Shown in pieces: positions 17,153 to 21,496 of a stretch of 21,496 bases of DNA. The position numbers and the translations under genes are program-made. How positions within the stretch are numbered: the first letter of the stretch is position 1; the number at the start of each line of letters is the position of its first letter. The notes under the pieces were generated by a model. The model worked only from the letters and a program-made list of their open reading frames with translations, did no database searches and was not told the origin of the DNA. The stretch is from a virus. The stretch spans positions 1-21,496 of IMG/VR virus record IMGVR_UViG_3300021440_000138. One strand, 5' to 3'.

Positions 17153-18117
17153 TGAAAGCGCCCAAAGCACCCGATCCCTACGCGACTTCGGCGGCACAAA
17201 CGCAGTCGAACCAGCAGACCGCCGCCTATAACGCGGCGCTCAACCGGGTTTCGCAATACACGCCCTACGGGAACCTGGTCTATTCGCAGACCGGGGTTGA
17301 TGGCAGCGGCGCGCCGAACTACCGCGCGGACGTATCGCTTACCCCGGCAACGCAGCACCAGCTCGACACGCAGCAGGCGCAGGACAGCGCGATTGCCGAC
17401 CTTGGCTTGGGCCTAACCGGGCAAATCGGCGACCAGATCAACCAGCCGATGCCGGACACTGCCGAGAGCGCGCGGGCGGCAAGCGATGCCTACTATAACA
17501 AGCAAAAGGCTTATCTTGATCCGCAGTGGGCAACCACGCAGGACAATACCGACAGCAAACTGGCAAACCAGGGCATTATCCAAGGCTCCGAGGCATGGAA
17601 CCGCGCGCAGGATGCGCTGGGGCGGCAAAAGACTTTTGCTTACGACCAGGCGCAGAACGGTGCAGTGCTGCAAGGCCAGAACGCGCAGGCGGCGGCTTTG
17701 GCGAATGCGATCACGCAGCGCAACTTGCCCGTTAACCAGCTCAACGCGCTGCGCAGTGCTACGCAAATCCAGAACCCGACGTTCACCAATACGCCGACTT
17801 CAAACTCGGCCAATACCGATGTTTCGGGCAATATCTGGAACAGCTACAATGCGCAGGTTGCCAACTCGAACAACTTCATGAACGGTTTGTTCGGGCTGGG
17901 CGGTGCGGCGCTTATGGCATCTGATCGCAGGTTGAAAACAGCGATCCGCCGCATCGGTAAAACCCGCATTATGGGCTTGCCGCTTTACGCGTTCCGCTAT
18001 GTGTGGGGCGGTCCTGTCCGCGTCGGCGTCATGGCGCAGGACGTGCTGCGCGTGATGCCTGAAGCCGCGCTTAAGGTGAAGGGTCGCTACGTGGTCAATT
18101 ACGGGGCGCTCAGCTAA
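17152..18117 (+). CDS. Virion protein with C-terminal Peptidase S74 chaperone domain
   Basis: A 321-residue protein. Residues 1-250 are polar, rich in Gln, Asn, Ala and Thr, and start with VSQYTPYGNLVYSQTG (33-48), which resembles a pattern found in podovirus particle proteins. Residues 256-321 form an intramolecular chaperone auto-processing domain: SDRRLK with Ser257 and Lys262 as the likely self-cleavage pair, then YAFRYVWGG, VGVMAQDV and VMPEAAL. In this family the domain helps trimers fold and then cuts itself off just before the serine, which would release about 65 residues. The long N-terminal part looks helical and disordered rather than fibre-like. Starts TGATG, ends TAATG with its neighbours. 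Confidence 0.82.
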   Translation: MKAPKAPDPYATSAAQTQSNQQTAAYNAALNRVSQYTPYGNLVYSQTGVDGSGAPNYRADVSLTPATQHQLDTQQAQDSAIADLGLGLTGQIGDQINQPMPDTAESARAASDAYYNKQKAYLDPQWATTQDNTDSKLANQGIIQGSEAWNRAQDALGRQKTFAYDQAQNGAVLQGQNAQAAALANAITQRNLPVNQLNALRSATQIQNPTFTNTPTSNSANTDVSGNIWNSYNAQVANSNNFMNGLFGLGGAALMASDRRLKTAIRRIGKTRIMGLPLYAFRYVWGGPVRVGVMAQDVLRVMPEAALKVKGRYVVNYGALS

Positions 18118-19754
18118 TGGCGACCAAACAGGACGTATCCTTTGCCAGCCCGCAAGCGATCCTTGCGCCGGACCTTACCGTCCAGCAGGCGCAGCAGGAG
18201 CGCCAGCAAGCGCTGATCGACGCCTTGAAGTCGCAGGCCTTGCAGCAGATAGACGGCGGGCGCGGTGCCATTTCATGGACGCAGGGGCTGGCGAAGCTGG
18301 CCGATGCGCTTGCGGCGCGGACCATGCAAAAGCGTGTGGACAAGAAGGCGGTGCTACTAAACCAGTCCTACGCCGACCGGATGCGCCCAATGTTCGGCTT
18401 GCCGCCTATCGGGCAGCAACAGCAAGGCAGCAGCGCCGGGCCTATTGATCCCGGAATGTCGGCTGGAATGTCGCAGCCTACGCAATTCGATCAGGCCTTC
18501 GCGCCTGAAACGCAAGCAATGGCGGGGGCCTCTCCTCCCCCCGTGGCACCTGCCATGCAGGAAGCCGCCCCGCTGCCGCAGTCCCCGCAGTCCCCTGCGG
18601 CAGCGGGGGATTACCCTATGGCGCTGAGCGGCAATCCACAGCAGGATCTCAACGACTGGGCGATGAACTCGGACGAATACACAAAGGCCATGATCGCCAA
18701 TCACGCGCCGGTCGCGATGGCCCGCACCGTGCAGCAGGCGCGGGATGCAATGGCGCGCGGGGACTTTGCGACGGCGCAAGCATTGCTGAAAAATATCCAA
18801 AAAGAGAACAACATTCCGCCAATCATAGGCCGGGCAAATGCGACAATTCGCGATGCGACTGATCCGTCAAAGGTTCTCGGGTATGATCCGGGCGCACTAA
18901 CCGGGGCAATTCCTGAATTTGGGCCGGATGGAATGCCGACTGGCTACAGAATGCTGCCCGGTGCATCACAAGCGATTGCGGCGGCATCCGGGGCTGAAAC
19001 CGCAGGCAAGAACGCAAACACGCCGATCACGGCTTACGATGCACAGGGCAACCCGATATTCACCAACGCGCTTAATGCGGCCCACGGCGGACAGGGCGGC
19101 AACTTGCGCCCCGCGCCCCCGCTTGGCGCGCAGGCCGCTTTCAACGTCACTGGCACCAATTCAGCCAATGCGTTCCAATCCATCTCGGATGCGGCTGCGG
19201 ACGTGCCTAACCGCATCCTCGCGCTGCGCCAGATGCAAACGCTGGTCAATGATCCGAAGTCAGTATTCGGAAAGGGCAGCGAAGGATGGAATAAGGCGGC
19301 GGGCTATCTCGGCACATTGACGGGCGGCGAACGTCCGAACGTCACCAACGCAAACGAGTTCAACAAGTGGGCCGCGCAATACAGCGCCCGCTCTGCGCAG
19401 GAGCTTGGCCTGCAAGGTTCCGATAGCCGCGTCCAACTTGCTGTCCATGCCACCCCGAACGGCGAGATGACGCGCGGCGCGCTGCAAACCATTCTGCCGC
19501 AATTCGTCGGTCTGGAAAACGCCAAGGCAGGCATGGCGCAAGCCGCGAATACTTGGCAGCAGCAATACGGCCCCGCATCGGTGCAGCAGTTCCGCACGAC
19601 GTGGAATCAGAATTATGACCCGCGCATCTATACCTGGATGGCGCAGGGTCCGCAGGCCTTTGCGCAAAATGCCAAGTCGCTATCGGCTTCGGAACGCAAT
19701 GCGCTGCGCAACAAGTATGTTGAATTGAAGCGCATCGGGGCGCTGCCGCAGTGA
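18117..19754 (+). CDS. Putative internal virion / DNA ejection protein
   Basis: A 545-residue Ala/Gln/Pro/Asn-rich protein without a catalytic motif. Residues 20-45 are a Gln-rich helix (LTVQQAQQERQQALIDALKS), and 95-165 are low complexity (Pro, Gln, Ala, with a PQSPQSP repeat). The C-terminal 230 residues are mostly helical, with a clear domain from about 330 (NVTGTNSANAFQSISDAAAD) to the end. Proteins of this size and composition next to a transglycosylase-bearing protein are typical of the ejection proteins of T7- and P22-like phages, which form a channel across the envelope. Starts at TAATG and overlaps the next gene by GTGA. The ejection role is inferred from context. Confidence 0.72.
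   Translation: MATKQDVSFASPQAILAPDLTVQQAQQERQQALIDALKSQALQQIDGGRGAISWTQGLAKLADALAARTMQKRVDKKAVLLNQSYADRMRPMFGLPPIGQQQQGSSAGPIDPGMSAGMSQPTQFDQAFAPETQAMAGASPPPVAPAMQEAAPLPQSPQSPAAAGDYPMALSGNPQQDLNDWAMNSDEYTKAMIANHAPVAMARTVQQARDAMARGDFATAQALLKNIQKENNIPPIIGRANATIRDATDPSKVLGYDPGALTGAIPEFGPDGMPTGYRMLPGASQAIAAASGAETAGKNANTPITAYDAQGNPIFTNALNAAHGGQGGNLRPAPPLGAQAAFNVTGTNSANAFQSISDAAADVPNRILALRQMQTLVNDPKSVFGKGSEGWNKAAGYLGTLTGGERPNVTNANEFNKWAAQYSARSAQELGLQGSDSRVQLAVHATPNGEMTRGALQTILPQFVGLENAKAGMAQAANTWQQQYGPASVQQFRTTWNQNYDPRIYTWMAQGPQAFAQNAKSLSASERNALRNKYVELKRIGALPQ
18568..18608 (+). repeat. 14-bp perfect inverted repeat inside ejection-protein gene
   Basis: ccccgctgccgcag (18568-18581) and its exact reverse complement ctgcggcagcgggg (18595-18608) enclose a 13-base loop. 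The stem has 12 G-C pairs and would form a very stable mRNA hairpin. It lies in codons for the low-complexity linker (PLPQSPQSPAAAG), where a 9-base tandem (ccgcagtcc twice) also occurs. Confidence 0.8.
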
Positions 19755-21496
19755 GCGATGACCCGTTCCTTGCTGCGCTGGGCGGTGCAGGCCCTCGCAA
19801 GCCGCACCCCATGGTCAACACCATGGTGCCGATCACGATTGCCAGCGAAAGCGCGGGCAACCCCAATGCCGTTAGCCCCAAGGGCGCGCGCGGGATCATG
19901 CAAGTCATGCCGGACACGGCACGCAATCCCGGCTTCGGTATCACGCCGTCTAACGGCACCCCGGAGGATACGGCGCGGGTAGGGCGCGAACATCTCTCCG
20001 CGATGATGGACCGCTACAATGGCAATCCCGCGCAGGCATGGGCTGCCTACAATTGGGGTCCGGGCAATCTCGACGGGGCTTTGGCGAAATACGGCGCGAA
20101 TTGGCTGGCCCACGCGCCTGCCGAAACGCAGGCCTATGTGCGCAAGAACATGGAGCGGCTTGGCGGCGATCAAGCACCAGCCGACATGGGCGATCCGAAT
20201 GACCCCTTCCTTAGCGCCCTCAATGGTGATAGAGGCCATGGCAATGCTTCAAATGTTCCTGCACCGTCTGCCGGGAATGCTGGCGGGTCTGGGCCTGACA
20301 ATGGCCGTCCTGTTTTTCCAGTCGCTGGTGATCCACTACAAAATCAGCAGCCGCAAGCGCAAGCGGGACCAGCGCAAGACAGCCCTTCGCGCATTGCCCA
20401 AATCGGACGCTTCGGCCACGATGTAATCTCCGGCGTTTTTAACGGCGTCGATGATGTAGTGGGGCAAGGCTTCGGTCTGGCTGCCCGTCTCGGTGATTTC
20501 ACCGGGATCACGCACGGCGCGCTTGATCGCCATGACCAGTTTCAGGAAGGGTATCAGAAAGGCAATGAAAAAGCCTTTTACGATCCGAATAGCTGGGCGC
20601 GGGCAGGCGGACGGGTAGGCGGCAACATCGCAGCCCTTGCCCCCGTCACCGCCCTGCGCCCGCTCCAGGCATTGGGCGCGGAAGGCAAGCTAGGCGCTAC
20701 ACTGGCGAAATATGGCGACTACGCGGCGCAGGGCGCTGCCGCTGGCACCGTCATGAGCGGCGGTCACGACATCGCTGAAAACGCCGCGCTGGGCGCTGTG
20801 ACGGCCCCGGTGCTGGGCGCTGCTATCGAAAAGGTTGCCGCGCCCGCGTTGGTATGGGCCGGAAGCAAGGCCATGGGCGCTGCCGAACCGGGGATTAATG
20901 CCGTCAAGGCATTGGCCGAGCGGATCAAGACGCGTTCGCAGGCCGCTAGCGAGATGGCCCCGGAAACGGGCCCCGCTGCCCCGAACGTTATGCCCGCCGA
21001 AGTGCGGCAAGGCATGGCAAAGATGCTTGAAAGCGGTGCATCTGCTGATGATGTCGCTACAGCCTATCCTTATTGGTCCGATGCCAAGGGAAACCGCGCT
21101 GTTATTTCATGGTGGGCGAATCACTTCCAAAAGGGCGGGAAGGGTCCGGTCAAATTTGCCGGGGAAGCGCCAAAGCCGAGCGATCCAGCCGGACAAGCCA
21201 CCCGCGAACAGCTTGCCGCCGCTATCGGGGATCGCGCGCAGAACCGGGGTATTTCGGCAACGCGCGAATTGCCGCAAGGCGTTGCGACCCGCGCCAGCGA
21301 ACTTGAAGCGCAGGGCGTTCCGAAAGGCGAGGCACTGCGCCAAGCCGATATTGAGGCAATCGGCGCAAAGCCTGCCGTTGCCCATGTCACGCGTTCGTTC
21401 GACGATATGCACGCGCTGGTTGAAGGGGCGAAGCATACCACGCCGGAAGGTGCAGCCCTGCGCGAACAACTTGGACAGAACAATGCCGCGCTGCAC
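19751..21496 (+). CDS. Large ejection-type protein with N-terminal lytic transglycosylase domain (3' end outside window)
   Basis: GTG 19751 overlaps the previous stop (GTGA), and the frame stays open for 582 codons to the window edge. Residues about 26-135 form an SLT-type lytic transglycosylase domain: catalytic Glu33 in SESAGNPNAVSPKGARGIMQ, and AAYNWGPGN at 98-106. This enzyme class cuts peptidoglycan between MurNAc and GlcNAc. A Gly/Pro/Gln linker (about 150-215) follows, then Ala/Gly-rich helical segments (GAVTAPVLGAAIEKVAAPAL) and charged regions. T7 gp16 likewise combines an N-terminal transglycosylase with a long ejection protein. DPFL-x-AL occurs twice (residues 4-10 and 151-157). 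The linker DNA also appears to encode a second protein in another frame. Confidence 0.85.
   Translation, partial: MSDDPFLAALGGAGPRKPHPMVNTMVPITIASESAGNPNAVSPKGARGIMQVMPDTARNPGFGITPSNGTPEDTARVGREHLSAMMDRYNGNPAQAWAAYNWGPGNLDGALAKYGANWLAHAPAETQAYVRKNMERLGGDQAPADMGDPNDPFLSALNGDRGHGNASNVPAPSAGNAGGSGPDNGRPVFPVAGDPLQNQQPQAQAGPAQDSPSRIAQIGRFGHDVISGVFNGVDDVVGQGFGLAARLGDFTGITHGALDRHDQFQEGYQKGNEKAFYDPNSWARAGGRVGGNIAALAPVTALRPLQALGAEGKLGATLAKYGDYAAQGAAAGTVMSGGHDIAENAALGAVTAPVLGAAIEKVAAPALVWAGSKAMGAAEPGINAVKALAERIKTRSQAASEMAPETGPAAPNVMPAEVRQGMAKMLESGASADDVATAYPYWSDAKGNRAVISWWANHFQKGGKGPVKFAGEAPKPSDPAGQATREQLAAAIGDRAQNRGISATRELPQGVATRASELEAQGVPKGEALRQADIEAIGAKPAVAHVTRSFDDMHALVEGAKHTTPEGAALREQLGQNNAALH
20244..20426 (+). 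CDS. Overprinted small membrane protein, holin-like candidate
   Basis: A 60-residue ORF lies out of frame inside the transglycosylase gene. ATG 20244 is eight bases after AGAGG (20231-20235); ATG 20238 is possible but too close. Residues 12-32 (GMLAGLGLTMAVLFFQSLVI and neighbours) form one membrane segment. Residues 33-53 hold ten Lys/Arg and one Asp, which by the positive-inside rule keeps the C-terminus in the cytoplasm. By hand count about 47 of 60 codons end in G or C, the genome's usual bias. The enclosing gene's frame over the same bases shows only about 25 of 61. The AGA codon that makes the Shine-Dalgarno is rare here. A lysis role is inferred from shape and position beside a cell-wall enzyme. 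It could instead be another membrane factor. Confidence 0.6.
   Translation: MLQMFLHRLPGMLAGLGLTMAVLFFQSLVIHYKISSRKRKRDQRKTALRALPKSDASATM

Follow-up and report, generated by a model that had tools for sequence, protein, structure and literature searches.

The window analysed here, a stretch of 21,496 nucleotides, is a 21.5-kb viral fragment with a podovirus-type layout of terminase, portal, capsid and tail genes, and its portal and capsid are kin of Bradyrhizobium phage ppBjS10J-1 and Myxococcus phage Mx8. Three large genes lie 3' of the tail genes at the positions of gp14, gp15 and gp16: genes 17152 and 18117 occupy the gp14 and gp15 positions and precede a third gene (the outer gene), which starts at 19751. 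Residues 30–114 of the outer protein match the Pfam SLT family PF01464 (E=4.4e-18), and the protein also matches PHROG virion/ejection families. The SLT domain is followed by a disordered stretch of Gly, Pro, Ala, Ser and Gln, which agrees with the flexible linker described in an initial annotation of this DNA. The motif DPFLSAL occurs twice in the outer protein, at codon 4 (about 19760) and at codon 151 (about 20201), and a second reading frame lies directly behind the second copy. The features at this locus are as follows:

19751 to 21496, continuing past the window end, + strand: outer gene, encoding an SLT transglycosylase-domain ejection protein at a T7 gp16-like position (assigned by Pfam, PHROG and gene order).
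20201 to 20221, + strand: second copy of the outer motif DPFLSAL, directly 5' of the nested frame; the motif has the same place in all four phages compared.
20224 to 20235, + strand: candidate ribosome-binding region of the nested ORF, GGTGAT and then AGAGG (anti-Shine-Dalgarno duplex of -8.8 kcal/mol).
20244 to 20426, + strand: nested +1-frame ORF of 60 amino acids with its TAA at 20424–20426, a candidate single-pass membrane protein with a basic tail (from its frame, the G/C content at third codon positions (GC3) and the relatives).
20276 to 20332, + strand: predicted transmembrane segment of the nested ORF, starting near outer codon 176 (best 19-residue Kyte–Doolittle (KD) mean 2.06).

An Rfam search of 18000–21496 matched no family. 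The window stops short of where its own lysis cassette would lie.

The 60-residue out-of-frame ORF reads from ATG 20244 to the TAA as initially annotated, and its Shine–Dalgarno (SD) sequence AGAGG was indeed found at 20231–20235, spaced 8 bases from the ATG. The overlapping GGTGAT pairs with the anti-SD sequence better than AGAGG does. The resulting duplex ranks in the top 3 of the 128 internal +1 ATGs in the window, and the annotated starts tested in the window give weaker duplexes (-1.8 to -6.2). A second in-frame ATG at 20238 would extend the ORF to 62 codons. Its product, MLQMFLHRLPGMLAGLGLTMAVLFFQSLVIHYKISSRKRKRDQRKTALRALPKSDASATM, carries the single hydrophobic segment and the tail with ten basic residues (Lys/Arg) that had been noted from the sequence. 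The reported switch in third-position bias (about 78% G/C in the inner frame and about 41% in the outer frame) was reproduced by computation, which gave 77% for inner and 42% for outer third positions over 20240–20426; G/C at outer codon positions 1/2/3 is 0.77/0.58/0.42. Each third base of an outer codon serves as the second base of an inner codon, the one that sets hydrophobicity. AF2 run on four inner sequences predicted one helix (residues 2–50, mean pLDDT 75), which fits a single-pass protein and is uninformative on function.

Taken by itself, the window says little about whether this frame is a gene. When the linker was resampled with synonymous codons, the +1 frame remained open in 88% of cases, and the open frame is therefore uninformative. 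A gene-wide test of +1 hydropathy in the window genome alone gave p about 0.024, and among 32 control ORFs four had p < 0.05 and five reached KD >= 1.9 in the +1 frame. A single genome is thus weak evidence, since about one in six unrelated genes has a comparable hydrophobic segment in its +1 frame. One such segment was found in a distant ejection gene (L082, 19785–20987, outer codons about 365–385; KD 2.06, genewise p 0.015) and was considered as another nested gene; its relative L212 carries a stop there, so that this segment probably arose by chance. Decisive evidence for a nested gene comes from relatives.

Syntenic phages were found by scans with tail gene 14786 and the capsid gene. Scans with gene 18117 and the SLT gene yielded few further relatives, the useful ones having come through 14786 and the record behind L032. 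Three relatives have a sufficiently complete outer gene: L007, L012 and G001, the last being the 41,965-base record behind L032, with its outer gene at the opposite contig end. With the window they form a comparison set of four sequences in three lineages, L012 and G001 counting as one. The L007 outer protein is about 43% identical to that of the window.

All four sequences have a start codon at the aligned position, in the same +1 frame and right after DPFLxAL: ATG in the window and in L007 (9489), GTG in L012 (16047) and in G001 (1426 on the reverse complement). A transmembrane segment follows 3' of the aligned start in each of the three relatives, and the start and stop of the nested ORF both fall inside the outer gene, as in the window. 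The L007 inner protein reads MLTLFLHKLWLGLAFLAAKVAILFFVALGLLIFHPDYKDPPKK up to its stop codon, and those of L012 and G001 begin (V)VPHLLNLLKGLAAAALIPVFPVAYALWIYNLLGDPARHRGRRK... and (V)GRHLLNLLGILLSAAVLGSLPVAYALWIYNLLGDPARHLGRWK..., respectively. The ORFs are unequal in length, at 60 (window), 43 (L007), 149 (L012) and 148 (G001) codons, and the C-terminal tail is usually basic across lineages. In the first half of the transmembrane segment, the outer sequences of L012 and G001 differ and hydrophobicity is kept in both. Judged by anti-SD pairing, the window has good start signals, and those of L007 and G001 are weak. Of the inner features whose conservation had been proposed as support for overprinting, the start position is kept, as ATG or GTG. 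The converse pattern, a homologue that keeps the outer linker with the inner frame broken by stop codons, was named at the outset as the one that would argue against a second gene, and none was found among the relatives compared. The more distant relatives L008 and L110 have a different linker with no membrane segment there, and L008-type relatives are without the transmembrane segment.

Comparison of the outer proteins also revealed a domain swap between the two DPFLxAL motifs, where the window (19751–20200) and L007 have the SLT domain and L012 (15548–16010) and G001 (L103) have a domain of the NNNPGNLRWDG type. The motif, linker, nested frame and C-terminal part are kept in L012 and G001 despite the swapped N-terminal domain. 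More generally, the last ejection protein of this podophage group begins with a short motif, specific to its lineage, that occurs at least twice with linkers in between. The variants are DPFLxAL, DPIEAAL, LDDIIARDAG, LAAQFLADA, FDDYLNAAP, WADDLAAAAP and VDDWLGA, and repeated motifs occur in the window and in L007, L012, L008, L031, L034, L038, L043, L045, L051, L063 and L064. The repeated motif may act as a signal for packaging or docking.

Selection on the inner frame was assessed by codon resampling, in which the outer protein was held fixed and synonymous codons were drawn from each phage's own genes. This gave p values of 5e-4 for the window, 5e-5 for L007, 6.6e-3 for L012 and 5.1e-3 for G001; for the three relatives place and frame were set in advance, and the L012 and G001 values are mutually non-independent. 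Sliding windows of 40 codons were then compared over the genes of the window (1390), L007 (584) and L012 (836) and over the outer gene only of G001 (255). The linker that holds the nested ORF ranks lowest in outer GC3 (0.30–0.38) and highest in +1 hydropathy in all four phages, the G001 rank referring to its outer gene only. Other linker-like (Gly/Pro) stretches in the same phages mostly have GC3 of 0.6–0.8 and low +1 hydropathy, and of the 29 genes in the window, L007 and L012, none but the outer gene contains a +1 window above KD 1.6. Together, the resampling p values and the GC3 and hydropathy ranks in four phages indicate selection on the inner frame beyond the constraint of the outer protein.

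Pairwise comparison of the window with L007 points the same way. Over linker codons 165–204, amino acid identity is 0.30 and outer third-position identity is 0.54, compared with 0.46 overall in three neighbouring genes. Eight of 11 same-residue codons in the linker are identical (baseline 0.49), which is a small sample, and the inner proteins are about 40% identical vs 30% for the outer linker. The window–L007 inner similarity was also scored against resampled nulls and was discarded as evidence, since the +2 frame scored equally high and the test therefore reflects general nucleotide conservation; inner-protein similarity between the window and L012 or G001 was not significant. Permutation within the segment, which keeps codon content, was significant for L007 (p = 0.002) and gave 0.09–0.21 for the other three. 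Most of the signal therefore lies in T-rich third-position content.

L012 and G001 share a 275-nt identical run within outer codons 231–322 that covers most of the inner C-terminal tail and ends about 19 nt past the inner stop. This run could reflect dual coding or recombination; recombination explains it equally well because the two phages share other near-identical blocks, and it was set aside as a measure of synonymous depletion, being confounded by mosaicism. The test of synonymous-site variation proposed in the initial annotation, applied to these few sequences, thus went in the right direction for the window and L007, on a small sample, and was confounded for L012 and G001. Elsewhere in the same two phages, a 2.9-kb tail-fibre/lysis block (L012 18877–21759) is 98.8% identical, with most other aligned blocks at about 66–82%, and this block appears to be a recent exchange of the lysis cassette between L012 and G001.

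Overprinting is supported by homology across three lineages, which share the place and frame of the ORF, its start codon, its membrane segment and the bias between codon positions. Leaving its role aside, we consider it highly probable from these comparisons that the ORF at 20244–20426 is a real overprinted gene for a membrane protein. By its sequence, the +1 frame of the ejection/SLT linker specifies a single transmembrane helix that follows a short N-terminal stretch and leads into a C-terminal tail, basic in most cases. In the model proposed here, ribosomes would start internally on the late structural mRNA, and the protein would insert in the host inner membrane, with its tail in the cytoplasm by the positive-inside rule.

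The signal could instead come from the outer gene alone, if T-ending codons in a Gly/Pro/Ala/Ser linker, used for instance because codon choice there is relaxed or slow, give +1 hydrophobicity by chance. Hydrophobic +1 segments do arise in this way in single genes, as the control ORFs and L082 illustrate, and the within-segment permutation was non-significant in three of the four phages. A chance origin would nonetheless have to repeat position and frame in three lineages despite diverged linker sequence, and to make this linker extreme in every genome when the other linkers of these phages are ordinary in GC3 and low in +1 hydropathy. It also sits poorly with third-position conservation between the window and L007 that exceeds protein conservation, and we regard it as improbable. 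A +1 frameshift near DPFLxAL, which would give the SLT domain a fused membrane anchor with no internal start, would account for a +1 frame directly 3' of that domain. G-rich stretches do occur at the junction (AGAGG, CAGGGG, AAAGGG, AAAGGGGGG), and the +1 frame is open upstream in the window and L012. However, the phages have no slippery motif in common, an in-frame TGA in L007 limits any shift to a few codons, and all four retain ATG or GTG at the junction, with a strong SD in the window; frameshifting is thus very improbable. The overprinting proposed in the initial annotation is accordingly the part of its interpretation that gained support, from the three lineages, the resampling and the ranks, and the lysis role attached to it fared less well, given the cassette found in L012 and G001.

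Overprinting being the preferred reading, what the protein does can be discussed from its location and shape. The inner protein is an orphan: no match was found in Pfam, PHROGs, phage records (tblastn) or an IMG/VR scan, and a separate scan of genome contigs gave only remote SLT domains. Our tentative suggestion is a late inner-membrane effector of the holin or holin-modulator type that may tune lysis timing beside a conventional cassette, and a role other than those named in this section is just as conceivable. That it is the lysis protein proper, as a holin or of the single-gene lysis type, appears doubtful. Late-operon position and a single transmembrane segment with a polar basic tail would fit; the protein is small, with at least one transmembrane segment and a polar charged C-terminal tail as in holins, a combination that is not specific. 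Nested single-transmembrane lysis genes in the +1 frame recur in ssRNA phages (PMC7693330), and Rz contains Rz1 in its +1 frame (PMC6139136). On the other side, the ORF sits in an ejection gene and not in a lysis cassette, and Pfam and PHROG show no similarity to holin families. L012 and G001 carry a conventional cassette downstream, with an amidase endolysin (PHROG 822, E 9e-49), two small transmembrane proteins, an Rz-like spanin (E 1.4e-4) and an Rz1-type lipobox lipoprotein. A sole lysis role is therefore unlikely in these two phages, and the nested ORF does not resemble a levivirus-type Sgl in being the only lysis gene. Since the window ORF lacks cysteine, the lipobox of an o-spanin (Rz1-like) is excluded.

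Superinfection-exclusion factors are typically single-pass membrane proteins, and the nested frame lies in, and is presumably co-expressed with, an ejection gene. Both points would suit a protein with a part in DNA entry at the inner membrane, as a virion-carried ejection partner or an exclusion factor directed against phages that share these ejection proteins, yet there is no homologue with an assigned function, the sequence shows nothing of packaging, and late expression would be unusual for exclusion factors; this general role is somewhat unlikely. Within it, a membrane partner of DNA ejection is unlikely and a superinfection exclusion factor quite improbable. The related idea that the protein works with or against the product of the gene that hosts it, for example as an ejection membrane partner or a linked exclusion factor, likewise seems rather unlikely; if true, an injection enzyme and a membrane factor would be inherited as one dual-coded unit.

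Gene E of phiX174 lies within D, an out-of-frame membrane protein gene inside a structural/morphogenesis gene. The nested ORF shares this arrangement; E is a 91-aa MraY inhibitor of an ssDNA phage. The outer gene is like T7 gp16, an internal virion protein, in having an N-terminal SLT domain and in being the last of a gp14-15-16-like ejection set; the DPFLxAL repeats and linker are specific to the podophage group of the window, and we know of no nested transmembrane gene in T7 gp16. To our knowledge, no nested gene has been described in an ejection or transglycosylase gene of any tailed dsDNA phage, and a limited search of open-licence papers on nested and overlapping phage genes, by title and abstract opening, showed no such nesting. 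Gene callers routinely miss nested out-of-frame genes, and the comparative support here is unusually clear for one in a tailed dsDNA phage. It suggests that a second gene can be accommodated in the disordered linker of a virion protein, and that a simple scan for an outer GC3 minimum coinciding with a +1 hydropathy maximum at a homologous place may uncover more cases.

The closest parallels in form are embedded lysis genes. Single-transmembrane sgl genes in the +1 frame arise repeatedly in ssRNA phages (PMC7693330): MS2 L and the metatranscriptomic sgls likewise encode small single-transmembrane products from wholly within a larger, essential gene, in many cases in its +1 frame, and the examples lack mutual sequence similarity. 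Unlike the window ORF, which is known from sequence alone and is hosted by a dsDNA podophage ejection gene whose relatives have a normal lysis cassette, each sgl is the sole lysis gene of a tiny RNA genome. The embedded two-component spanins of lambda and T7 (PMC6139136) share with the window complete +1 nesting in a tailed dsDNA phage; Rz1, in contrast, has a lipobox Cys, belongs to the outer-membrane lipoproteins and is nested in another lysis gene, whereas the window ORF is Cys-free and lies in a gene for a virion protein. Nested membrane-protein genes are thus a known kind in phages, and the new aspect is the host gene, an ejection/transglycosylase gene.
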